The translations under genes were made by a program, and so were the position numbers. Shown here one piece after another: positions 31,523-58,235 of a stretch of DNA of 64,000 nt. A model generated the notes under the pieces. The model was not told where the DNA came from and did not search any database. It saw only the letters and a program-made list of their open reading frames with translations. This DNA comes from Marinomonas sp. SBI8L (GTDB lineage Bacteria; Pseudomonadota; Gammaproteobacteria; Pseudomonadales; Marinomonadaceae): NCBI RefSeq assembly GCF_001624705.1, contig NZ_JSEO01000012.1, forward strand, positions 62,001 to 126,000, written 5' to 3'. Positions within the stretch are counted from its first letter, which is position 1. Each line of letters starts with the position of its first letter.

Positions 31523-31577
31523 ACCTTTTGAGCTATAATGGGCATTATGCTTATTAACCTGTCTATTGGAAGATGTG

Positions 31578-32012
31578 ATGAAGCGGTCCCAGCGTATTCA
31601 AAAGCTCGTTGAACTATCTCAGAAAAAAGAAGATACAGTTGCCCGCTTGCTTGCTCGACAAAAAGCGAAAGTAGAGCAAGAAAAACAGAAGCTAGAGCAA
31701 TTGCAAGAGTACGCTTCTCAATATGAGTCTGAGCGAAATTTATTAGGTATGAGCCCTTATTTAGTCACTAACTATCAGCACTTTGTTACGCGATTAGAGC
31801 AGGCCGTGCAGCAGCAAAAAGGTGCTATTTCTCAGTCAGAACACCAGGCTGATCAGGCTCAGCAACAATGGTTGGCTGCCAGGGCTAAAACTAAGAGCAT
31901 GGATATTGTAAGAGATAAACATGCTCAGCAAGAGCAAAAATTAGAAGATAAGCTGGAGCAAAGGCAAACAGATGAATTTGCTATGCTCAGGTTTATGAAA
32001 TCTGGTTATTAA
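31578..32012 (+). CDS. fliJ: Flagellar export chaperone FliJ
   Basis: A 144-residue, almost entirely coiled-coil protein, rich in Gln, Lys and Glu, as FliJ is. In known systems it fits into the FliI ring and carries chaperones. The chosen ATG has GGAAG five bases upstream; an in-frame TTG at 31566 would add four residues. It ends fliEFGHIJ, and four non-structural genes follow before fliK. Confidence 0.88.
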   Translation: MKRSQRIQKLVELSQKKEDTVARLLARQKAKVEQEKQKLEQLQEYASQYESERNLLGMSPYLVTNYQHFVTRLEQAVQQQKGAISQSEHQADQAQQQWLAARAKTKSMDIVRDKHAQQEQKLEDKLEQRQTDEFAMLRFMKSGY

Positions 32013-32035: not shown

Positions 32036-33982
32036 ATGGAAGTGCTATTGAGTAAACTCAGTTATCGCCTTTATGAATTAGAAAGCTATAGTCTTTCCTA
32101 TGACTTTTCTCCCGTTGAAAGTTTAATAGATATTAGAGAAGGCTTAGATTGGCTGAGTGCAAATGCGGCTCAACAGTTTGAGTTAATGTCATTAAATGAA
32201 TTGTTGGATTCATTCTTACGTTTGGTTGCAGGTTTGCAGCACGAACTTTCACCTTTTAATTTTAAGTTTCGAGACCTGTTGCTTGAGTTTATTGACTTGG
32301 CGCGACAGCTTATTTTAGAGCAAGATTTCTATTTATCTTTTGAACCTAATCTAGCAACTAAATCACATCAAATAACTTTAATTTCAAACAAAATTGACTT
32401 ACTTGGTAATGAGCTAACAACTGGCTCTAATTTAGCAGTGAATGTTTATGAGTCAGACGTTAATCAAGATAATGATTATTGGCTGAATGATCTAATAGAC
32501 TTCATTGAAAGGTTTTCTCGCGTTGGTGCTTACTACTTTGAGGGCGGACTCAACTTCAAGCCTGAAGGGCTAATGAATGAGGACGTAAAGCTGATTTTGA
32601 ATAACACTTCATCCTCTTTGGTTTTAGGTGTAAAAACCTCACAATCTCTAGCTTGGATGAAGCATAATTTTAATAAATTTAGATGGAATAAAAGGCAAGA
32701 CTCTAAGCTGGTATCACCACTGAATCTAGCATCTTTATTTAAAGGTTTCAGGCATGCAAATGAATTGTTAGGTTGGCGAGAGAAGAAACGATTTAAATAT
32801 TCGAATTACTATAAAGAGCTTGAAAGTGTTTATCTTGCTTCTCAATCTCTAACCCTAAAACAGGCCGCTCAGCAACTTTCATCCACTTTGAAATTAGATA
32901 TAGAGGTGATGGCATATCAGAGTTCGCTGTATGTAGATCTTGATGCTTTTGATAAGTTGAAGCAGAGCCTTGCTAAGGCGATTAACTTAAACTCTTGTGA
33001 CCATAGCTTTCAGTATTATTTGTCTTTGAAGGATTGTGCAGGTTGCTCATATCTGTCTCTTGAAGAGGTGAATGAATTAGGACTACAGAGTGAATCAGAA
33101 GTAGGCTTAATAGGAGGGCCTAATCAAATTGATGTTGAGCTTAATAAGCTCAGTTTATCTGTCTCTGTTGATTTAGATGTGCTCGAACATTCTGTGTGGC
33201 AGATGAACTTTGCTAATGAAGTTATTTGTGTTCCAGATCACAAAATACATTCAATACAAATATTTGAAGTTAGAGATTTTGAATCATGTGATAACTTTTC
33301 CATCATTCAGATGACATTTGACTCCATAGGTGCCATTGATGTTTTTGTTGCGCCTCATGAGCAAAGCCAGCTAGAAGGAGATACTAGAGTTGTATTGATT
33401 GAGGAAATTGGGCGAACCTATGGCATATTGGTGACAGATATGCGGCTTCAAAGGCGCGCCTATAAAGTTGCTTCAAAAGGGGTGAATGCTAAAGTAAATA
33501 TGCTTTGGTGCTTAGGTGGTGAAAATGTGGTGCCAGAGATAAATCCATGTGCCTATGAAGAAACTAGTATAAACCTAATAGTGAAACAAGATGATATCAG
33601 AGTAGATAAGAGTGGTTGGCTCGCTAAGGTTGCAGGTATTCCTTGTTTTATAGGTGCAGATATAGTTGAAAAACATTTACCTGTCACTCTTGAAAATGTG
33701 GTGAATTTACCTGGGATAAGCCTTCCTTTAGCTAAGCTTGAGGGGGGGTGTTACCCCTACTTAGATATTGAAAAGGAACTGGCTATATCTTTAGTTTTAT
33801 TGACGTCTCAGGATAAATATATATGCCTTCCTGTGGAGGCAATTTATTACGAAGCAGATATGAGTAATAAGTTGCAAAGCATTGAAGGTATAGATCGGCT
33901 GGATTTAAGAGAGTTTAGCCTGCTTTCATCAAATTATGATGCTAACTTATTATATGTAATTGATTCTAATAGCTTTGGATAG
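32036..33982 (+). CDS. Degenerate CheA-like protein with two CheW-like domains (putative pseudokinase)
   Basis: A 648-residue soluble protein. By eye it lines up with the CheA encoded at 51371-53695. Residues about 24-95 match the P1 Hpt helices, but the FHTVKGG phosphoacceptor site reads LDWLSAN, so the His is gone. Residues about 272-345 follow the P3/P4 boundary (LKQAAQQLSSTLKLDIEV; N-box remnant INLNSCDH at 316-323), with no DxGxG and no GxG boxes. Residues 372-505 match P5/CheW (ANEVICVPDHKIHSI; VLIEEIGRTYGILVTD). Residues 526-646 match a second CheW-like unit (VVNLPGISLPLAKLEGG). ATP binding and phosphotransfer are therefore unlikely; a scaffold role is inferred. It lies 23 bases after fliJ. 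A CheA origin is my alignment, not a search result. Confidence 0.65.
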   Translation: MEVLLSKLSYRLYELESYSLSYDFSPVESLIDIREGLDWLSANAAQQFELMSLNELLDSFLRLVAGLQHELSPFNFKFRDLLLEFIDLARQLILEQDFYLSFEPNLATKSHQITLISNKIDLLGNELTTGSNLAVNVYESDVNQDNDYWLNDLIDFIERFSRVGAYYFEGGLNFKPEGLMNEDVKLILNNTSSSLVLGVKTSQSLAWMKHNFNKFRWNKRQDSKLVSPLNLASLFKGFRHANELLGWREKKRFKYSNYYKELESVYLASQSLTLKQAAQQLSSTLKLDIEVMAYQSSLYVDLDAFDKLKQSLAKAINLNSCDHSFQYYLSLKDCAGCSYLSLEEVNELGLQSESEVGLIGGPNQIDVELNKLSLSVSVDLDVLEHSVWQMNFANEVICVPDHKIHSIQIFEVRDFESCDNFSIIQMTFDSIGAIDVFVAPHEQSQLEGDTRVVLIEEIGRTYGILVTDMRLQRRAYKVASKGVNAKVNMLWCLGGENVVPEINPCAYEETSINLIVKQDDIRVDKSGWLAKVAGIPCFIGADIVEKHLPVTLENVVNLPGISLPLAKLEGGCYPYLDIEKELAISLVLLTSQDKYICLPVEAIYYEADMSNKLQSIEGIDRLDLREFSLLSSNYDANLLYVIDSNSFG

Positions 33983-34049: not shown

Positions 34050-36017
34050 ATGACAGAAATTAACTTAAATGCTCGACGTAATAATGTAGTGACATTTTTA
34101 ACGCGCTCTGTGCTCGTCTTAATGCTATGGGTTTGCCTTGTTATGTCTGGGCTATTTTTCTTTATCACTGAAGAAAATAATAAATCCATGGTGGCTGAGC
34201 AGCGGGTTGATTTGATGCTTGAGCAATTGAATGAGCTTCAGTTAGAAGCTTTAGAGTTATTTATCTATTCGACGAATATTATTCCACATGATCCAGCTAG
34301 CGTTGAAGAATTATCAAATAAAGAGCAAGTTTTACAAGCTAGGGTAGCGGCAGAACTTGAAGAAATGATTCGAATTTATCGTGAAATCGATAATTTTCCG
34401 GTGATAGAGCTAGATTTAGAAAGGCTATTAGAAGTTCAAGATGTAGAGCAAAAGATGCTGATAATTGAAAGGTTTCAGGAAAGCCTTATTTTAGCGAGAT
34501 CTGTTTTACATGAATTTAAGTTATTAAAGAAACAAGAATACCTTATCAGCTTTCAGCTTTTTCAAAATTTGGTGATTGGCTTCGCTCTAGTAACTTTGCT
34601 GGGCTTACTTTTTACTTATGCTTTGATGCGAAAGAGGCTTTTAGTTGGTTTGGAAAGTGTTCTGAATTTAGTAAAAAAATTCCATCATAAACAATATTCT
34701 TATTCACCAGATTGGCATCATAATGATGAATTTAGGGATATCTTCTTTCACTTGCAACAACTTAAGGAATCTAATCTAGTTAATGCGCATGTGATTGAGC
34801 GGGATAAAAGCTTATTAGAGCATTATTTTCAAAATATTCAGGAGCCTTGTTTAGCCTTGAATAGTGACAGGCGCTATGTGTTCTGTAATCAGTTGTTTGA
34901 GTTGATATGGTCTGAATATCAGGTTGAAATTGAATCAAGCTTGTGTGATTTAGATGAGCCTTCGCTTGAGTTGGTTGATATTAAAATTGCTGAAACTAAA
35001 AATAATGATAATTTGCCGTCATTATTCCGTTTTAACGGTTTGGCCTATACTTTTAATGAAGAAGAAATCTTTGAAGAAGGACGTTTGATTGGTTATCTAT
35101 TAACCTTTACTCCAGTGTTTGATGAGCTAGAGTACGAAGCTGTCACTAAGCTTGTTTCATTAATGTCTAATGATGTTTGGAATGCGCCAGTTAGAGTGAT
35201 GAGAGAGGAGTCAAAGGTTGCTGCTTTAGCTGTCCAATTAGAGAAAATACGTCTATCAGTAACAAGTCTAATTAACTTATTTGATGGGATGACTGTTGCA
35301 GAAGAAAAGCAGAAAGTAACATCTTTAAAAGAAGTTGGTGAGTTGGTTATTATGCTCTCTGAGTCTTTAACTGATGCAAATGATAAATTAACAAAACAAG
35401 AAGTGACGTTTATTGAAGACGAGTCTGAAAGTGAATTTGAATCACAGGATGAGTTGGACTTTGAGCCATTAAAAGGTGCTGTTTTAGAGCTGAGACAAAA
35501 AGTTGAAAATAGCATATTCTTTGCCTCCCAATTAGGTAAAAAGAATACTGACTCATTGCAGGGGTTGGAATCTAATTTGTTACTTGGTTATGAGAACTTG
35601 AATCAAAGCCTAACGATTGTTCATAAAGGTGTTGAGGCGAGTGTTAATGCCTTGCAAGATAGTTCTGATTGTATGTCTGAGGTTAAAGTGGCTGTGTTGA
35701 ATGCCATAGTTAATAAAGATGAAAGTGATATTGAATTGGACGCTTTGCAAAGTATTGCTGTCGATTTAAGTCATGACATAGACACGGTTTCACAAATGTT
35801 ACAAGATTCATTAGCGCAAGAGAAAGAAAGTTTAGCTATATTAGAAAGTGACATAGAGTCTTGTCAGGAGAGATCGGTTAAAGCAAAAAATGCAATACAG
35901 GAGTTTAGCTTGAACAATCAGGAAGATGAATTAACTTCGCACTCTGAAAATATGATGAAGGATGTTTTCAGTTTGGACGATGTATTGGAACGTTTAATAG
36001 AAAAGAGTAAGCCTTAG
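34050..36017 (+). CDS. Chemoreceptor-shaped membrane protein without MCP signalling tip
   Basis: A 655-residue protein. TM1 at about 17-39, a helical extracytoplasmic region at 40-168, TM2 at 169-192, a HAMP-like stretch at about 193-245, and a PAS-like region at about 252-357 (YFQNIQEPCLALNSDRRYVFCN). A long acidic helical part follows to the end (475-650). The layout is that of a chemoreceptor, but the conserved MCP hairpin ([19 protein letters not shown] type) is absent, and there are no kinase motifs. AGGA precedes the ATG. It lies 67 bases after the CheA-like gene, and I infer that the two work as a receptor-scaffold pair. I recognise no named family. Confidence 0.6.
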   Translation: MTEINLNARRNNVVTFLTRSVLVLMLWVCLVMSGLFFFITEENNKSMVAEQRVDLMLEQLNELQLEALELFIYSTNIIPHDPASVEELSNKEQVLQARVAAELEEMIRIYREIDNFPVIELDLERLLEVQDVEQKMLIIERFQESLILARSVLHEFKLLKKQEYLISFQLFQNLVIGFALVTLLGLLFTYALMRKRLLVGLESVLNLVKKFHHKQYSYSPDWHHNDEFRDIFFHLQQLKESNLVNAHVIERDKSLLEHYFQNIQEPCLALNSDRRYVFCNQLFELIWSEYQVEIESSLCDLDEPSLELVDIKIAETKNNDNLPSLFRFNGLAYTFNEEEIFEEGRLIGYLLTFTPVFDELEYEAVTKLVSLMSNDVWNAPVRVMREESKVAALAVQLEKIRLSVTSLINLFDGMTVAEEKQKVTSLKEVGELVIMLSESLTDANDKLTKQEVTFIEDESESEFESQDELDFEPLKGAVLELRQKVENSIFFASQLGKKNTDSLQGLESNLLLGYENLNQSLTIVHKGVEASVNALQDSSDCMSEVKVAVLNAIVNKDESDIELDALQSIAVDLSHDIDTVSQMLQDSLAQEKESLAILESDIESCQERSVKAKNAIQEFSLNNQEDELTSHSENMMKDVFSLDDVLERLIEKSKP

Positions 36018-36072: not shown

Positions 36073-36182
36073 ATTTGTTATTCAATTCTCTTATTTTCCA
36101 ATTTGCTTTAAGTGTCAAGGAAGGCAAATTATTAAAGATGAAGTTGTCATTACTTCATGAAGACTTTATAGGATTTAGTTGT

Positions 36183-36485
36183 ATGATCATGCAGACACAA
36201 TACGATGAAAAAAAACATGCCTTAGTAATTCAAATTGAAGGACGGTTTGATTTTAGTTGTCATAAGGCGTTTAAAGATGCTTACAGCTCTGTAGAAAGTA
36301 ATTGTAAGTTTGAGTTAGATATGACGAAAGTCACTTATGTTGATAGCTCAGCTTTAGGTATGCTTTTGCTTCTTAGGGATTATGCTGGTGGAGATCAGGG
36401 CGAAATAGTCTTGAGTCACTGTAATGACGCAGTAGAAAAAATCCTTCGTATTGCTAACTTTGATAGGTTGTTTTCACTGCATTAA
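36183..36485 (+). CDS. STAS-domain anti-sigma factor antagonist (HsbA-like)
   Basis: A 100-residue single STAS domain. The phosphorylatable serine lies in VTYVDSSALGMLLLL, the classical SpoIIAA-type motif. Its genomic neighbour is a PP2C phosphatase/anti-sigma kinase, so it should be the phosphorylated and dephosphorylated switch of that pair. In Pseudomonas the equivalent HsbA binds FlgM or a diguanylate cyclase depending on its phosphorylation. The ATG chosen has AGGA about nine bases before; the open frame extends up to a TTG at 36075, which would give a longer N-terminus not typical of the family. Confidence 0.82.
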   Translation: MIMQTQYDEKKHALVIQIEGRFDFSCHKAFKDAYSSVESNCKFELDMTKVTYVDSSALGMLLLLRDYAGGDQGEIVLSHCNDAVEKILRIANFDRLFSLH

Positions 36486-36488
36486 TCC

Positions 36489-38189
36489 ATGTCTTTAGTT
36501 TCTCTTAATATATTAATTGCTGACGATAACCCATCTGATAGGTTGTTACTAAAAGCTATGCTTAGTGGTCTTGGGCATAACGTAGAAGTTGCAGAGGATG
36601 GGTTAGAGGCAATAGAAAAGTTTGATCCAGATTCAACGCAATTGGTTTGTCTTGATGTTGTTATGCCTGAGTGTGATGGGCTAGAGGCAGCTATTAAAAT
36701 ACAAGAGATGAGTCGTGGACGTTTTATTCCAATTGTTTTTTTGTCTGGCCTTTCTGATACATCTTCTTTAGTAAACTGTCTCAAGGTTGGCGGTAGTGAT
36801 TTTATTTCTAAACCTTTTAATCTAGTGTTAATCGCTGCTAAATTGGATGCCATTATTCGCATTCTTTCTTTGCAGAAAACATTAGAGTCTCAAAGGGACA
36901 AGCTTTCATCTTATAATGAGCAGCTTATTCATGAGCAAGAAGTGGCAAAAGTTGTCTATGAAAATATTACCCATTCCAATTGCCTGTCTGACCCTTGTTT
37001 AAATACCTTTTATTATGGTCATCATTTGTTTAATGGTGATGTGATACTCGCTGCCTATAAGCCAAATGGCGGAATGCACCTTCTTATCGGAGATTTTACT
37101 GGTCATGGCCTTTCAGCGGCAATTGGTGCATTACCTTTAGCTGATATTTTCTTTGAGTGGACCCGTAAAGGCTTCTTAATGAGGCAGATAGTGCCAGAAA
37201 TTAATCGTAGGTTAAAAGCAATTTTACCTGCTGATATGTTTTGTAGTGCCTTATTTGTTGACATCAACATTACTGATAAAACACTAGAGGTTTGGAATGG
37301 CGGTTTACCTGATGCGCTTTTCTTTTCTCAGAGGCAAAAGAAACCTCAACCTTTAGTTTCCCATAACTTGCCGTTAGGAATAGTTGCGGAGTCAGAGTTT
37401 ACTTATTCAACAGAGATAGTAAGTTTTGAAAATGGTGATTCGTTTTTAGCCTGGTCTGATGGTATTTATGAAGCTATTGATTCTAAGGGGTTGATGTTTT
37501 CTGAGTATCAGCTTAACTCTTTGATTGAGGGGAGAGTTGAGGTCGGTGATATTATGCCATGGTTAAGGCGTAAGCTTGAAACCGAAGGTGTACTAGACTC
37601 TTCTCACGATGATATATCTTGCTTAAAAATAGAGTTGCATGATGCTATTGGGGTTGAGCAAGAATCGAGTCAAGATAAAGCCGCTGAGCTTGACATGCCA
37701 TCTGACTTTTCTTTCGAATATACCTTAAATGCAGACTCTTTAAAAAACACAGACCCTTTGCCTTATATCTTGCAAATTATTATGACAGTGTCTGGGCTTA
37801 AGCGTTATTCGGGACAGGTGTTTATGATGTTGTCTGAGCTTTATTCAAATGCTTTAGAGCATGGAGTGTTGCAATTAAATTCAGAGCTTAAGGCAACTAA
37901 CGATGGTTTCGTACTTTATTATATGGAGCGTGAAACGCGCTTAAGTACACTTGAAACTGGTTTTATTAGAATTAAAGTCTCTATTTCTTCTAATGAAGTT
38001 GGCGGTTTATTGAGTATTGAGCTTGAAGATAGTGGCGATGGTTTTGATACCTCAAAAGTTGGCTTGAAACTAGAAGACTCTGATGAGCTTTATAATCGAG
38101 GTTTACCTTTGCTTGGTCAGCTTTGCCAATCCATCACCTTCTCTGATAAAGGCAATCAGGTAGGTGTTCAGTATCAGTGGGATAAATAA
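36489..38189 (+). CDS. Response regulator with PP2C phosphatase and HATPase anti-sigma kinase domains (HsbR-like)
   Basis: A 566-residue partner-switching regulator. REC (1-125) has Asp56 in VCLDVVMPECDG and Lys108. A coiled coil covers about 125-155. A SpoIIE-type PP2C phosphatase spans about 165-385 (IGDFTGHGLSAA with Asp202, WSDGIYEA, HDDIS). An HATPase_c_2 kinase domain ends the protein (about 405-560, ELYSNALEHG, LEDSGDGFD). It should phosphorylate and dephosphorylate the STAS protein three bases upstream, with the balance set by REC phosphorylation. Pseudomonas HsbR has the same architecture and a partner HptB; no Hpt gene is next to it here. Confidence 0.87.
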   Translation: MSLVSLNILIADDNPSDRLLLKAMLSGLGHNVEVAEDGLEAIEKFDPDSTQLVCLDVVMPECDGLEAAIKIQEMSRGRFIPIVFLSGLSDTSSLVNCLKVGGSDFISKPFNLVLIAAKLDAIIRILSLQKTLESQRDKLSSYNEQLIHEQEVAKVVYENITHSNCLSDPCLNTFYYGHHLFNGDVILAAYKPNGGMHLLIGDFTGHGLSAAIGALPLADIFFEWTRKGFLMRQIVPEINRRLKAILPADMFCSALFVDINITDKTLEVWNGGLPDALFFSQRQKKPQPLVSHNLPLGIVAESEFTYSTEIVSFENGDSFLAWSDGIYEAIDSKGLMFSEYQLNSLIEGRVEVGDIMPWLRRKLETEGVLDSSHDDISCLKIELHDAIGVEQESSQDKAAELDMPSDFSFEYTLNADSLKNTDPLPYILQIIMTVSGLKRYSGQVFMMLSELYSNALEHGVLQLNSELKATNDGFVLYYMERETRLSTLETGFIRIKVSISSNEVGGLLSIELEDSGDGFDTSKVGLKLEDSDELYNRGLPLLGQLCQSITFSDKGNQVGVQYQWDK

Positions 38190-38244: not shown

Positions 38245-40311
38245 ATGTTAGCAAATTCAAATTTATCTGTAATTACCCCAAAATCTAACGTCAATTCTTC
38301 AAGTGCTGGAAGCGAGCCTTCCACTTCAACCGATTCATTTGATAGCGTCTTTCAGCAAGTTAGTGGTGAATTATCTACTGATTCACCCTCTCAAACAGTT
38401 CCTCCTTCGGGTAACTCTATAAAAGAGGATAGCGTTGAGACTGATGTACTTGTTGGTGATGAAGCTAATTTGGATGAGAGTAAAGAGCTAGTCTCTGACT
38501 CAACTCCCGTTGAGGCTAGTGTTGGTGCTGGTTTGGTCGCAATTGAGCAAGATAATATATCTAATTTAACTGCTGAGGGTTCTTCTGTTCAGGGTTCTTC
38601 TATTCAAGGTGCTTCGACAAATATCTCTCAGGAAGACATAGTAAATACAGAGCTAGTTTCAGCTCAGACTGACCTTGCTTTAGAGGGAAGAGGGAGTTTA
38701 TCTGACAATGATATGCCTGATAGCTTGGACCCTAAAAGTCTTGATGCCAGCCTAGTTTCTAACGAAGGGGTTGCATCAGGGACTTTTAATTCGATTAATT
38801 CAGCGCACAATGTTTCTGTTGAACATGAATTGGGTAAAGACGGTCTCATTGAAAATACTCAGCCCCCCTCAAGTGTATTAGCTGGTCAAGGGGAAAAATC
38901 AAACTTAGGTGGCAACTCTTTGCAAAGTCAGGGGGTAAAAGTTGCCAATCAAGGAGAGATTCAGCTTAACTCTGTTGAAGAAAATAAGTTGGTAAATAAT
39001 CAAAATGCAGAATTAACCACTAATACACTTGTTTCAGGATCTTTGGCTGCAACTGCAGGTTTAGCTAAAAGTGATACAAATCCTACTCATGATTTAACCA
39101 GCTCTGTTGAGGGGCATGTAGAGGCAAATTCAAAAGTCGCGAATGCTTCTACTAGCCTAGCTACTGGGTTGGCAGCTAGTGCTGCGACTACGAATCTTGC
39201 ATCAAGTTCTAAAGCAACCACTTCTGATAGTGAGGTATCCGGATTACTCAATGAACAGCTTGAAAATCTTGCTAAGAGTGATGCTAATAAAGCAACTCAA
39301 AGTCTTGTTCCAGAAAGTGATTCGCTTGATGTATCTGCTGGTTTAGCTTTGTTAGGTGTAGGTGCGTTATCGCGTGATACTAAGTCGCAAGTAGTAGCTG
39401 AAAGCGCTAAATCGATTACGCCTAGCTCTGGTCTTGTGTCATCAGAATTAGCCGAAAATGCTGACCTTGATTGGATAATGCAGCAAATGCCAAGGGAGCA
39501 ACAAGTAACAGCGGAGTTGGGAATGGGGGCTGAGTTGATTAAATCAACTGCTCCAGTAAGTCCCGCTTTGGCACAAAATACAGATCAAATGACAAAAGTA
39601 GCTGCACCTTTGTCCTTAGGCTTGGCTGCTGGTGAGTCAGGCTTGTTAGAGGCAGGTCCTGAATCTGAAATGTTAATTGAAACTGAGTTTAAAAATAATA
39701 ATGCCAATAAAATTGAGCCAGAGTTAGGTCGACAACTAGATACGTCTAGCTCGACTCGCTCTGGGCTAGGGGATAGTAGTTTGGGAACAAATACAATCAG
39801 TACGGCCCCAACTGCAGCTGTTGAGACAAAGCTTGGTCTGGCGACAGCAGTGACTAACACAAGTAATCCTGCAAATATGACAATGCAAGTTCCTCCAAAT
39901 CATCCTAACTGGTCTTCAGAGATGGGAGAAAAGATGATGTGGATGAATAGGCAAGGCATACAGCAAGCTGAAATTCATTTGGATCCTCCAGAGTTAGGAA
40001 GCTTAACAGTTAAAGTGTCTGTTGATTCTGATGTTGCTACTGTAAGTTTTGTTGCAGCATCAACTCAAGTTAAAGATTTGCTTGAAGGTCAGGTTCAAAG
40101 GCTGCGTGAAATGATGGCGCAGCAAGGTGTGGAGTTAGCCGAAGTAGACGTTAATGTTTCTCAGCAAGGATCTGGCTCACAACAATCAGGAGAGGATGCT
40201 GATAACCAGTTTGCTCAGCATGATTTAGATACAGATTCAGAAGAGGTTGATTCAAGTTTGATGATGAATGAAGCGAATGTGTCTCGTTCAAAAGTCGATT
40301 TTTATGCATGA
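38245..40311 (+). CDS. fliK: Flagellar hook-length control protein FliK
   Basis: A 688-residue secreted ruler protein. A long Ser/Thr/Ala/Asn-rich low-complexity N-terminal region ends at about residue 545. The C-terminal Flg_hook domain has QQAEIHLDPPELGSLTVKVS and LLEGQVQRLREMMAQQG. A Gln-rich tail follows. It binds FlhB and switches export from hook to filament subunits in known systems. A GGAGG box precedes the ATG. A second FliK-like protein is encoded on the minus strand at 59479-61599. Confidence 0.92.
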   Translation: MLANSNLSVITPKSNVNSSSAGSEPSTSTDSFDSVFQQVSGELSTDSPSQTVPPSGNSIKEDSVETDVLVGDEANLDESKELVSDSTPVEASVGAGLVAIEQDNISNLTAEGSSVQGSSIQGASTNISQEDIVNTELVSAQTDLALEGRGSLSDNDMPDSLDPKSLDASLVSNEGVASGTFNSINSAHNVSVEHELGKDGLIENTQPPSSVLAGQGEKSNLGGNSLQSQGVKVANQGEIQLNSVEENKLVNNQNAELTTNTLVSGSLAATAGLAKSDTNPTHDLTSSVEGHVEANSKVANASTSLATGLAASAATTNLASSSKATTSDSEVSGLLNEQLENLAKSDANKATQSLVPESDSLDVSAGLALLGVGALSRDTKSQVVAESAKSITPSSGLVSSELAENADLDWIMQQMPREQQVTAELGMGAELIKSTAPVSPALAQNTDQMTKVAAPLSLGLAAGESGLLEAGPESEMLIETEFKNNNANKIEPELGRQLDTSSSTRSGLGDSSLGTNTISTAPTAAVETKLGLATAVTNTSNPANMTMQVPPNHPNWSSEMGEKMMWMNRQGIQQAEIHLDPPELGSLTVKVSVDSDVATVSFVAASTQVKDLLEGQVQRLREMMAQQGVELAEVDVNVSQQGSGSQQSGEDADNQFAQHDLDTDSEEVDSSLMMNEANVSRSKVDFYA

Positions 40312-49297: not shown

Positions 49298-49397
49298 TAA
49301 CTTTATGTTATTTCAACCAGTAAGTTATAGAACAATATAGTACAGTTATTTCAAGAGTATTGGTTTAACAAATATAAGGTTACGTTCATCTTTGATT

Positions 49398-50132
49398 ATG
49401 CAGTCCAGAACAGGTCTAAATGCCTATAATCAAAAACCGGCACCATCAGTTAATCAAATTATTGATGAATACGGTTTCTTGGTTAAAAAAATTGCCTATC
49501 ATCTGCTTGCGAGGTTACCAAGCAGTGTTGAGCTGGATGATTTAATTCAAGCGGGGATGATGGGATTGATTGAGGCGTTTAAACGCTTTGAGTCAACAAA
49601 AGGTGCTAGTTTTGAAACTTATGCCGGAATCCGTATTCGTGGCTCTATCATGGATGAGGTCCGTAAAAGTGACTGGGCTCCTAGGTCAGTACGTCGAAAT
49701 GGGCGAGCAATAGCTAGTGCGATTAAAGAATTAGAAGCTAAGCTTGGTCGTGAAGCTAGTGATTTTGAAATATCTCAAGCAATGGATATTGGGCTAAATG
49801 AATATCATGAGATGTTGCAATCAAGTATGTCTACTCAGTTATTTAGTTTTGAAGAGTTGCTTGACTCTGAAGGGTTAAATATTGAGACAGATAATGAAGA
49901 GGATAGTGCGCCATACTCTTTTGTTGAAGACTTAGGTTTTCAAAAACAATTGGCGCAAGAAATAGATTCTTTACCAGAACGAGAAAAGTTAGTTCTATCC
50001 TTGTATTACAATGATGAACTTAACCTTAAAGAAATCGGTTCTGTGTTAGGTGTGAGTGAATCGCGAGTGAGTCAGATACATAGTCAAGCAGCTATGCGTC
50101 TTAAAGCTAGATTAAGTGATTGGCGAGATTAA
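49398..50132 (+). CDS. fliA: Flagellar sigma factor FliA (sigma-28)
   Basis: A 244-residue sigma factor for late flagellar and chemotaxis genes. Region 2 includes VKKIAYHLLARLPSSVELDD and ASFETYAGIRIRGSIMDEVR; region 4 includes LPEREKLVLSLYYNDELNLK and SESRVSQIHSQA. The ATG has no strong ribosome binding site. A TTG two codons earlier lies nearer an AAGG and may be used instead. It follows flhF after 100 bases with no ORF between, and cheY follows after 42. No flgM is in the window. Confidence 0.95.
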   Translation: MQSRTGLNAYNQKPAPSVNQIIDEYGFLVKKIAYHLLARLPSSVELDDLIQAGMMGLIEAFKRFESTKGASFETYAGIRIRGSIMDEVRKSDWAPRSVRRNGRAIASAIKELEAKLGREASDFEISQAMDIGLNEYHEMLQSSMSTQLFSFEELLDSEGLNIETDNEEDSAPYSFVEDLGFQKQLAQEIDSLPEREKLVLSLYYNDELNLKEIGSVLGVSESRVSQIHSQAAMRLKARLSDWRD

Positions 50133-51370: not shown

Positions 51371-53695
51371 ATGAGTTTCGAAGTTGATGAAGAGATCCTA
51401 CAGGATTTTTTAGTTGAAGCAGGTGAAATCCTTGAACAGCTATCTGAACAACTGGTTGATTTAGAACAAAACCCAAACGATATTGCCTTACTGAATGCAA
51501 TCTTTAGAGGTTTCCATACAGTTAAAGGCGGCGCCGGATTTTTACAGTTAAATGCATTGGTTAACTGTTGCCATTATGCTGAAAACGTATTTGATATTTT
51601 GCGTAACGGTCAAAGAAACGTTACCGCAGAGCTTATGGATGTCGTTTTACAAGCTCTTGATGCCGTTAATGAGATGTTTGAGGTGGTTCGTTCTGGCGGG
51701 GAGCCAGAGCCTGCTGACCCTGAAATAATTGAAGCTTTAAGTAAGTACGCTTGTCCTGCCTCTGAAGATGAAGAGGGAGAAGATGAGTCTGAAGCAGAAG
51801 TTGAAGAGACAGTAGAAGAAGTAGAGGAGGCTCAGGTTGAAGAAGTAGATTCTGCTGCTCAAGACGAGAATGTTGATATCTCAGATGATGAGTTTGAATC
51901 GCTTTTAAATGCTTTGGGTGATAATGAAAGTACCCCAGCTGCAGTACAAGCAGAGACTTCTCGGCCTGACAATGCCGCTCCGGCTAATAGCGATGATATT
52001 ACTGAGAGTGAGTTTGATGCACTTCTAGATCAACTGCACGGTGAAGGAGTGCCTGGTGCAACAAATGATGCGGCTCCAGAGCAAGCTGAACCAGCAACAG
52101 AAACTCAAGCAGCTGACACAGCTTCTGATGAAATTACTGAAGATGAGTTTGAGAAATTATTAAATCAACTTCACGGTGAAGGTGCTCCTGGACAGGATTC
52201 AGCTAAAGAAAGTGAGCAACCAGAAGCAGAAAAGGTAACAGATAAGAAAGACGATAAAGTGGCAAATGCTGCTGGTCAAGATTCTGATTTAATTACAGAA
52301 GATGAGTTTGAATCTTTATTAGATACCTTGCATGCTGAGAAGCAACAAGCTCCTCAAGCATCAACGTCTGAAAATAAATCAAAGGCAGAGGCGAAAGCTA
52401 AACCTAAAGCAGAGGCGAAAGCTAAACCCAAGCCAAAAGCAGAGGCTAAGCCCAAACCGAAAAAAGCTGAGGTTGTAGCGAAAGAACCTGCGAAATCTAA
52501 AGATGATAAGCCGAATGCGCCAGTTGTTCAGGAAACGACAGTAAGGGTAGATACAAAGCGTTTAGACGATATTATGAATATGGTGGGAGAGCTAGTTTTA
52601 GTTCGAAACCGTCTAGTTCGTCTGGGTTTACAAAGTGAAGATGAGTCAATGGGGAAAGCTGTAGCTAACCTTGATGTTGTTACTGGCGATCTTCAGAATG
52701 CTGTTATGAAAACTCGAATGCAGCCAATTAAGAAAGTATTTGGACGTTTTCCTCGAGTTGTTCGTGACTTAGCTAGAAACCTTAAGAAAGAAGTTAATTT
52801 AGAGCTTAGAGGTGAAGAAACCGATTTAGATAAAAACTTGGTTGAAGCGCTTGCAGATCCTCTTGTTCACTTAGTGAGAAACTCTGTAGACCATGGTGTT
52901 GAAGCACCAGATGTTCGTGAGGCAAATGGTAAGCCTCGTGGTGGTAAGGTAATACTGTCAGCTGAGCAAGAAGGTGATCATATACTTCTATCCATCGAAG
53001 ACGATGGTGCTGGTATGGATGCAGATAAGTTGCGTCAAAAAGCAGTTGAAAAAGGCTTAATGGATACTGATGCTGCAGAGCGCTTATCTGATGATGAAGC
53101 CTTTAATTTGATCTTTGCTCCAGGTTTTTCTACTAAGGTTGAAATTACTGATGTGTCCGGCCGCGGTGTAGGTATGGACGTAGTTAAGACGAAAATTTCG
53201 CAACTTAACGGAACATTAGACATCAAATCTGTTTTAGGTAAGGGGTCACGATTCTCTATTAAGGTGCCTTTAACCTTAGCTATTATGCCTACGCTGATGG
53301 TGATGCTAGAAGATCAAGCATTTGCATTCCCTCTAGTGAGTGTAAATGAAATCTTCCATTTGAATCTTAAAAAGACAAACATAGTGGATGGTCAACAAGT
53401 GGTGGTAATTCGTGGTAAAACACTACCTATCTTCCATTTGAAACACTGGTTAGTTAAAGGTCAAGCTGCTGATCTTAACCCTGAAGAAGCTCATGTTGTT
53501 GTTGTTCAGGTTGGGATGAATGAAGTTGGCTTTGTTGTTGATCAGTTGGTCGGTCAAGAAGAGGTTGTGATTAAGCCTCTTGGTAAAATGTTGCAAGGTA
53601 CATCCGGTATGGCTGGTGCAACTATTACCGGAGACGGACGAATTGCATTAATTTTAGATGTTCCTAGCATGCTTAAGAGTTATGCATCGCGATAG
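51371..53695 (+). CDS. cheA: Chemotaxis histidine kinase CheA
   Basis: A 774-residue array kinase. P1 has the phosphoacceptor His49 in FRGFHTVKGGAGFL. Residues 130-385 are a long acidic, then Lys/Ala/Pro-rich linker with four copies of an I-[ST]-x-x-E-F-x-x-L-L-x-x-L motif; no globular P2 domain is apparent. P3 starts at about 390. P4 has LVRNSVDHG (N-box), EDDGAGMD (G1) and GRGVGMDVV (G2). P5 runs from about 635 and couples to CheW. It is followed by cheB after 27 bases. Confidence 0.96.
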   Translation: MSFEVDEEILQDFLVEAGEILEQLSEQLVDLEQNPNDIALLNAIFRGFHTVKGGAGFLQLNALVNCCHYAENVFDILRNGQRNVTAELMDVVLQALDAVNEMFEVVRSGGEPEPADPEIIEALSKYACPASEDEEGEDESEAEVEETVEEVEEAQVEEVDSAAQDENVDISDDEFESLLNALGDNESTPAAVQAETSRPDNAAPANSDDITESEFDALLDQLHGEGVPGATNDAAPEQAEPATETQAADTASDEITEDEFEKLLNQLHGEGAPGQDSAKESEQPEAEKVTDKKDDKVANAAGQDSDLITEDEFESLLDTLHAEKQQAPQASTSENKSKAEAKAKPKAEAKAKPKPKAEAKPKPKKAEVVAKEPAKSKDDKPNAPVVQETTVRVDTKRLDDIMNMVGELVLVRNRLVRLGLQSEDESMGKAVANLDVVTGDLQNAVMKTRMQPIKKVFGRFPRVVRDLARNLKKEVNLELRGEETDLDKNLVEALADPLVHLVRNSVDHGVEAPDVREANGKPRGGKVILSAEQEGDHILLSIEDDGAGMDADKLRQKAVEKGLMDTDAAERLSDDEAFNLIFAPGFSTKVEITDVSGRGVGMDVVKTKISQLNGTLDIKSVLGKGSRFSIKVPLTLAIMPTLMVMLEDQAFAFPLVSVNEIFHLNLKKTNIVDGQQVVVIRGKTLPIFHLKHWLVKGQAADLNPEEAHVVVVQVGMNEVGFVVDQLVGQEEVVIKPLGKMLQGTSGMAGATITGDGRIALILDVPSMLKSYASR
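51875..52333 (+). repeat. Four degenerate peptide repeats within the CheA linker
   Basis: The codons for CheA residues 169-183, 209-223, 254-268 and 307-321 encode a repeated motif: DEFESLLNAL, SEFDALLDQLHGEG, DEFEKLLNQLHGEG and DEFESLLDTLHAE. The second and third copies share the longer LHGEG tail. Confidence 0.85.
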
Positions 53696-57209: not shown

Positions 57210-58235
57210 ATGAAAGATGAAAAACCATCAACAGAGGTGTTAATTGCGCCTCAACTTGCAGTTCAACGCTATTTGGATGAGTTACTCCAAGATGCAACTG
57301 TGAATGTTGAAGCTGTACCTGACGTTGAGGACGACTCAGTTAGTGAAGAGCTAGCTGATGAAAAACAAGCTGAAGAGTTAACAACACACGATAAAACGGA
57401 TGCTGAAATTAAGCATGATCAGCAAGATGAATTTGTTTTACACGAAATAGAAAATGAAGAAGATGCCTTTGCCGCTTTTGAGTTTGCTGTTGCAGCCCTA
57501 GAGAATGAAACTGAAGCCGTTGAGAGTGAACTGGCTTCTGAGCCTGAGGTAGTTGTAAACAATGAGCCAGTTGTAGAAAGTGAGATTATACAAGCAGAAA
57601 CTGATGAAAAAGGTGTTGAGCCCCCTGCGCTTGTTGAAACTGTCGAGCAAGAAACCGAATCAGAGGCTAAATTAGATAAAGGTACTCAAGAGACAATCGC
57701 TGTAGAACCAACGCAAGAAGATGCTGCAGATTTAGAGCCTGAAGTTGTATCAGATAAAACCAAGCCTTTACCTTGGGCCGAAAGTCGCTTTGAATGTCTT
57801 TTGTTTAATGTTGGTGGTTTGAAAATGGCCGTCCCTTTAGTTGAATTAGGTGGCATCCAAAAAGCTGATTATGAAAAAGTTACTAAGATCTTTGGTCAGC
57901 CAAATTGGTTTATTGGGGTATCCAGTGTAAATGATCTAAGGATTCGAACGGTAGATACTGCTCAATGGGTAATGCCAAATCATTATAAGGGTGAGTTGCA
58001 TGACTCATTTAAGTTTATAATTCAATTAGATCGCTCCAATTGGGGGCTAGCATGCGAAGATGTTGCAGAAGCAATTTCGTTAGAGCCTTCTGAAGTAAAG
58101 TGGCGATCAGATAGAAGTAAAAGGCCTTGGTTAGCAGGCACTGTAATTGATCATATGTGTGCTATTTTAGATGTACAAGGTTTTATAGAGCTACTTGATG
58201 ACCCTAAAAATGGATTTAAGGCTCATCTTAAATAA
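57210..58235 (+). CDS. parP: ParP-like CheW-domain protein
   Basis: A 341-residue protein. Residues 1-190 are very acidic (Glu, Asp, Ala, Val) and likely disordered. Residues about 195-335 resemble a CheW/AIF domain (FECLLFNVGGLKMAVPLVEL, PNWFIGVSSVNDLRIRTVD). In Vibrio, ParP binds CheA and MCPs and links arrays to ParC. The gene order parC-parP-cheW-DUF2802 supports that role here. It begins at the base after the parC stop, with no spacing. Confidence 0.82.
   Translation: MKDEKPSTEVLIAPQLAVQRYLDELLQDATVNVEAVPDVEDDSVSEELADEKQAEELTTHDKTDAEIKHDQQDEFVLHEIENEEDAFAAFEFAVAALENETEAVESELASEPEVVVNNEPVVESEIIQAETDEKGVEPPALVETVEQETESEAKLDKGTQETIAVEPTQEDAADLEPEVVSDKTKPLPWAESRFECLLFNVGGLKMAVPLVELGGIQKADYEKVTKIFGQPNWFIGVSSVNDLRIRTVDTAQWVMPNHYKGELHDSFKFIIQLDRSNWGLACEDVAEAISLEPSEVKWRSDRSKRPWLAGTVIDHMCAILDVQGFIELLDDPKNGFKAHLK

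Follow-up and report, generated by a model that had tools for sequence, protein, structure and literature searches.

What can a relative of the chemotaxis kinase CheA do inside a flagellar operon once the chemistry of a kinase has gone? Few bacterial kinases have been studied as thoroughly as CheA, and the question is raised by a gene, here called X, in a 64,000-nucleotide stretch of Marinomonas sp. SBI8L (contig NZ_JSEO01000012.1, positions 62,001–126,000), which we refer to as the window and whose numbering is used throughout. X occupies 32036–33982 on the + strand and encodes 648 amino acids; the open reading frame exists in the flagellar operon as the first-pass annotation had described it. 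X is very probably homologous to CheA and devoid of CheA chemistry, and it stands in an hsbA–hsbR module that lacks the Hpt gene seen in other genera.

The predicted fold of X keeps the order of CheA. A P1 (Hpt-like) domain of five helices (residues 1–130, 32036–32425) is followed by a P2-like domain with a predicted beta-alpha-beta-beta-alpha-beta order (residues 136–219, 32441–32692), by P3-like helices with a cut-down P4 remnant (residues 226–372, 32711–33151) and by a CheW-like P5 domain (residues 373–508, 33152–33559). A second CheW-like unit is probable at the C-terminal end (residues 520–648, 33593–33979); all of these lie on the + strand. In the fold search with X, CheA P1 scored 15.0 and the first unrelated bundle 9.6. 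A Foldseek match of 244 columns links the P2-like part to the CheA P1–P2 fragment 2lp4 (E = 0.047). The structure 1b3q could be aligned over residues 250–508 of the X model and over residues 208–452 of that of the relative L072, in which the alignment starts at residue 297 of 1b3q and two helices occupy the position of the P3 hairpin. By sequence profile alone (hhalign), P1, P5 and the second CheW-like unit match in CheA order, and all three matches of the X profile outside the genus are CheA. The second unit is matched to CheA P5 (E = 0.0041) and to the first unit of X itself (E = 0.0061 over 25 columns), and its predicted strand order is that of the first unit; no fold match covers residues 520–648. 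The first-pass annotation had aligned X by eye with the CheA of the window, and this observation is confirmed.

Not every result supports a descent from CheA. The P2-like and P3/P4 parts lack any profile match in hhalign, the majority-clade profile by itself gives P1 no support, and with the majority-clade rows alone the match to CheA is weak and partly shifted. The model of the X of the window is weak in its middle, with a low predicted local distance difference test score (pLDDT) over the P3-like helices and the P4 remnant. Single-sequence searches of Pfam, NCBIfam, PHROGs and PDB matched X to no family, the Pfam Hpt profile PF01627 run against its own genome at E up to 1 left X unmatched, X alone found no relatives in a scan of genome contigs, and a plasmid search was empty. 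With hmmscan, 41 X members gave hits to 18 scattered families; the one CheW hit was weak (E = 0.056), and we did not use these results as evidence. One could regard the resemblance as chance or a modelling artefact and X as an unrelated protein: neither X in HMMER searches for CheA domains nor the X family profile among PDB sequences found CheA, whole-chain TM-scores are low (0.23), helical bundles reach middling Z-scores by chance, and the P1 of L072, at Z = 14.2, is near the warning range of the tool. This explanation is barely credible in view of the distance between CheA P1 and the first unrelated bundle, the three domains found in CheA order by profile and the exclusively CheA matches outside the genus.

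Neither a phosphoacceptor His motif nor an intact ATP site is present in X. The place of the phosphoacceptor His is taken by Leu37–Asp38 (codons 32144–32149, + strand): hhalign sets Asp38 opposite the His and alignment of the preceding Arg by eye sets Leu37 there, a register that derives from sequence alignment rather than from structural superposition. Column 37 is Leu in 32 of 41 members and column 38 contains Asp in three and His in one, such that neither holds a conserved His or Asp. The motif H[ST]xKG is found in none of the 41 X members and in 35 of 38 CheA. The G2 motif is likewise absent from all 41, while G1-like strings occur in two members and N-box-like strings in three, of which only that of the X of the window is at the expected place. 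A true ATP site was considered and rejected, both G1-like strings (in L037 and L047) being unaccompanied by a G2 box. In L072 only about 70 residues separate the P3-like hairpin from P5, and P4 is cut down. CheA itself has the phosphoacceptor His motif and a full P4 with ATP motifs. The earlier proposal of a CheA-like protein without phosphoacceptor or ATP site is therefore borne out by fold, profile and motif counts.

Is such a protein still under selection? FliJ was searched for in 49 Marinomonas genomes, including that of the window, and was matched in 48; the exception, G022, may have lost this flagellar operon. The X family was defined by position, from the stretches downstream of fliJ in 47 relatives. 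An intact frame of 525–667 amino acids follows fliJ in 41 of them, X is cut by a contig end in L056, and in M. pontica (L016/L070, one genome) it is split into two overlapping frames of 258 and 404 amino acids, either through a frameshift or through a sequencing error. The family is thus present in 43 of 47 Marinomonas loci. Divergence is very fast. Taken pairwise, X sequences have a median identity of 15.6%, those of its neighbour TM (see below) 23.1% and those of PP2C 60.1%, and blastp with the X of the window at E = 1e-3 finds only L010 and L012 among the relatives. That the members form one family was examined by aligning subgroups separately and comparing them. The 18-row majority matches ten other rows with E = 1.6e-16 and the window pair with E = 2e-8; residues 6–221 (P1–P2) are the only part of the latter comparison that aligns well.

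X is under purifying selection. The ratio of non-synonymous to synonymous substitution rates (dN/dS) is 0.15–0.31 in 12 of 14 pairs, the other two being saturated, compared with 0.02–0.09 in ten of 14 pairs for PP2C; these values are rough, some pairs having dS above 1. Five columns are invariant, among them Trp491, Glu501 and Pro504. The low identity relative to PP2C, together with the absence of X from four of the 47 relatives and its splitting in one, might suggest a decaying CheA remnant that is carried along in the operon. We regard this as very improbable: it is opposed by the dN/dS values, by the invariant columns and by the frame that is intact in 41 of 47 loci, with one more cut by a contig end.

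The surroundings of X indicate the process in which it may take part. X adjoins fliJ on its upstream side (31566–32012; Pfam FliJ, E = 5.1e-26) and is followed by TM, a 655-amino-acid membrane sensor-like protein with a HAMP-like region (34050–36017), a STAS protein resembling the anti-anti-sigma factor HsbA (36105–36485; Pfam STAS, E = 2.1e-13), an HsbR-like protein with receiver, SpoIIE phosphatase and HATPase domains assigned by Pfam (36489–38189) and then fliK (38245–40311; Pfam Flg_hook), all on the + strand. The open frame of the STAS gene begins at 36075 and its start codon at 36105 is provisional; the STAS proteins keep the Ser-Ser site. The HsbR-like protein is 38–42% identical to its counterparts in 47 loci outside the genus, and the STAS and receiver-SpoIIE-HATPase genes adjoining fliK match the arrangement of the HsbA–HsbR–HptB module. 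According to PMC5085249, the phosphorylated form of HptB in P. aeruginosa switches on the HsbR phosphatase, which frees HsbA to bind FlgM; HsbA and HsbR act on FlgM and sigma-28, and in other Pseudomonas species the module genes adjoin fliK. These neighbours of X, homologues of the HsbA and HsbR described there, agree with the suggestion in the first-pass annotation that X is a pseudokinase or scaffold linked to the control of flagellar genes.

Loci for comparison were obtained by a scan with the phosphatase-HATPase part, from which the best 80 of 371 stretches encoding a relative were taken; the nearest relative of the window among them is Marinomonas sp. MED121 (L057). Thirty-three of the 80 belong to Marinomonas or Maribrevibacterium and 47 lie outside, mostly in Pseudomonas, Marinobacter and Cellvibrio; by 'outside' we mean these 47 nearest loci rather than all bacteria. 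Profiles for Hpt (built from outside rows) and for X, TM, STAS and PP2C (built from Marinomonas rows) were run on all frames of at least 50 amino acids at E = 1e-5. Matches in the source rows of a profile are expected by construction since the profiles were built from them; absences are not. The outside loci contain Hpt in 46 cases and STAS in 47, with neither X nor TM in any. In 46 of 47, L114 and L128 included, the end of the Hpt frame lies directly after PP2C, and the stretch of the sole exception, L092, stops at a contig edge. The 47 Marinomonas fliJ loci contain no Hpt (45 are long enough to show the gene, L036 and L056 being too short), X in 43, TM in 46 and STAS in 38. The corresponding numbers for the 33 scan loci inside, which overlap with these 47, are none, 31, 33 and 31. 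Behind the HsbR-like gene of the window there is no Hpt gene and fliK follows instead. X thus stands in a module from which the Hpt of other genera is gone. Like Marinomonas, Pseudomonas has the STAS and receiver-SpoIIE-HATPase genes of its HptB–HsbR–HsbA system between fliJ and fliK; unlike in Pseudomonas, the Hpt gene is absent in Marinomonas and X and TM precede the STAS gene. HptB, unlike X, possesses the phosphoacceptor His. In M. colpomeniae (L039/L075) the HsbR-like protein is full length and no STAS frame of at least 50 amino acids lies between TM and its gene.

The lack of Hpt in a module that holds a dead CheA relative hints that contact between proteins has replaced phosphate transfer in this relay. 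Our tentative preference is that the CheA-derived pseudokinase has taken the position of HptB opposite the receiver and influences the HsbR-like receiver through binding. Action by contact is inferred from Caulobacter DivL as a working analogy, which PMC4211667 presents as a His-less histidine kinase relative that binds a phosphorylated receiver. DivL is a PAS-bearing relative of sensor kinases and not a CheA, while X differs from it in the loss of most of P4 and the presence of CheW-like units. In the way that DivL docks onto DivK~P, the P1/P2 part of X would dock onto the HsbR-like receiver, and docking would tip the HsbR-like protein between kinase and phosphatase action towards the STAS protein. 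The P5/CheW part would tie X to the HAMP-type TM or to the chemoreceptor array, and a membrane signal would thereby set the FlgM/sigma-28 output. Receiver phosphorylation may still contribute in species that keep the Asp.

The receiver gives some indication of such a change. Its phospho-Asp is present in all 47 outside loci and is replaced in five Marinomonas (L014, L018, L029, L035 and L047), by Gly in four and by Asn in one (Fisher p = 0.02, without correction for relatedness). All five have X. The TM tree puts these losses at no fewer than three points, namely L014 with L018, L047, and L029 and L035 in an unresolved fork. The phosphatase and HATPase catalytic residues are kept in 40 full-length HsbR-like proteins and, judged from these residues, the enzyme probably works without the Asp in the four full-length cases. 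A fuller account, in which a dead CheA replaced the phosphotransfer protein of a flagellar sigma-factor switch, the HsbR-like receiver is set by contact under a HAMP-type sensor and the receiver Asp, or receiver and phosphatase together, have since been lost in several species, is possible but appears doubtful to us.

A number of observations sit badly with control of the receiver by contact. Of 42 alignable Marinomonas receivers (the alignment has 45 rows, three without an alignable residue, and L055 was left out), 37 retain the phospho-Asp. X is absent from L022, L024, L027 and L033, which all retain TM and belong to two or more separate parts of the TM tree; L024 and L033 nevertheless keep a full-length HsbR-like protein. 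Conversely, L047, L051, L052 and L055 keep X and TM where STAS and SpoIIE are gone and the HATPase is left; Pfam finds a receiver only in L047 and the HATPase alone in the other three, in which X cannot act through a recognisable receiver. These three relatives lower the odds of the contact model a little. The genome also holds other Hpt proteins, one of them stand-alone, that could still serve the HsbR-like receiver. The stand-alone Hpt on contig C69 was considered as a moved HptB, the adjoining frame being sensor kinase-like by eye, and short frames with Hpt matches occur in many other genomes of the genus among the matches listed.

Alternatively, X could serve the chemoreceptor array as a structural adaptor, which would suit the four relatives that keep X where STAS and SpoIIE are gone, three of which also lack a recognisable receiver. 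Ring formation in CheA depends on P5 and CheW, and X keeps two CheW-like units that could enter CheA/CheW rings and position the array, or else the flagellar gene module, at the pole; the HsbR-like receiver would not be read. We consider this rather unlikely, as it leaves unexplained why P1 and the P2-like domain are retained and why X is located in an Hpt-less hsbA–hsbR module, and P1–P2 alone aligns well when the window pair is compared with the majority. The P1 and P2-like folds kept without the His would also suit a receiver sink, in which P1/P2 would bind CheY or the HsbR-like receiver and leave less of it free, with no membrane signal involved. A sink is improbable in our estimation; it gives no role to P5, to the second CheW-like unit or to the steady neighbour TM.

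This neighbour, whose membrane segments were judged by eye, is found in 46 of the 47 relatives' loci, the 47th being cut by a contig end, and persists where X is lost. Its profile matches HAMP-bearing sensors elsewhere in the order: all six scanned matches, two of them from Marinomonas, have a Pfam HAMP domain and are matched over it. Sequences of sensory rhodopsin transducers match weakly at the HAMP-like region (E = 0.12). A CheW unit normally binds the signalling domain of a methyl-accepting chemotaxis protein, and a link from X to TM is made harder to accept by the 34 TM members in which Pfam at E up to 0.1 finds no such domain and reports no HAMP either. TM has a conserved His at residue 575 (35772–35774, + strand; His in 45 of 46 and Tyr in one) in the motif DLxHDI, which resembles a sensor-kinase H-box without a kinase domain; Pfam at the same threshold reports no HisKA match.

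The hsbA–hsbR surroundings are themselves known, and what is new is X with TM where the Hpt gene is missing. The claim that no system like it has been described holds for this combination and not for the module around it. Literature searches for gene X, its module or a CheA pseudokinase, which covered open-licence PMC without bioRxiv preprints, listed no paper whose title describes gene X. X differs from CheA also in its location, a sigma-factor switch module rather than a che cluster. Berry et al. (2023; PMC10782961), whose survey covers thousands, report HATPase for all CheA in it, recognise CheA by matches to HATPase and CheW and note a second CheW domain in some CheA; a protein like X would escape that criterion. 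The CheA of G272 also has a second CheW domain. Berry et al. also state that the function of the ChpA Hpt domains without His is yet to be established. In X a His-less Hpt-type domain is kept by selection within a module whose logic is otherwise known, which makes its function directly testable. A genus-wide CheA descendant without kinase chemistry would show that the CheA scaffold is useful in its own right. Should X have replaced HptB, intermediate stages on the way from a phosphorelay to control of a flagellar sigma factor by contact would exist within one genus, a natural conversion, if true, of His-Asp phosphorelay into phosphate-free signalling with several stages side by side.

Further along the window, the true CheA that served as the comparison protein is encoded at 51371–53695 on the + strand (Pfam Hpt, H-kinase_dim, HATPase_c and CheW). 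A sigma-70-family gene at 49392–50132 is probably fliA by position, and a FlgM gene is present in the genome that carries the window. A 341-amino-acid protein encoded at 57210–58235, adjoining cheW, has a CheW domain only in its C-terminal part (residues 195–327).
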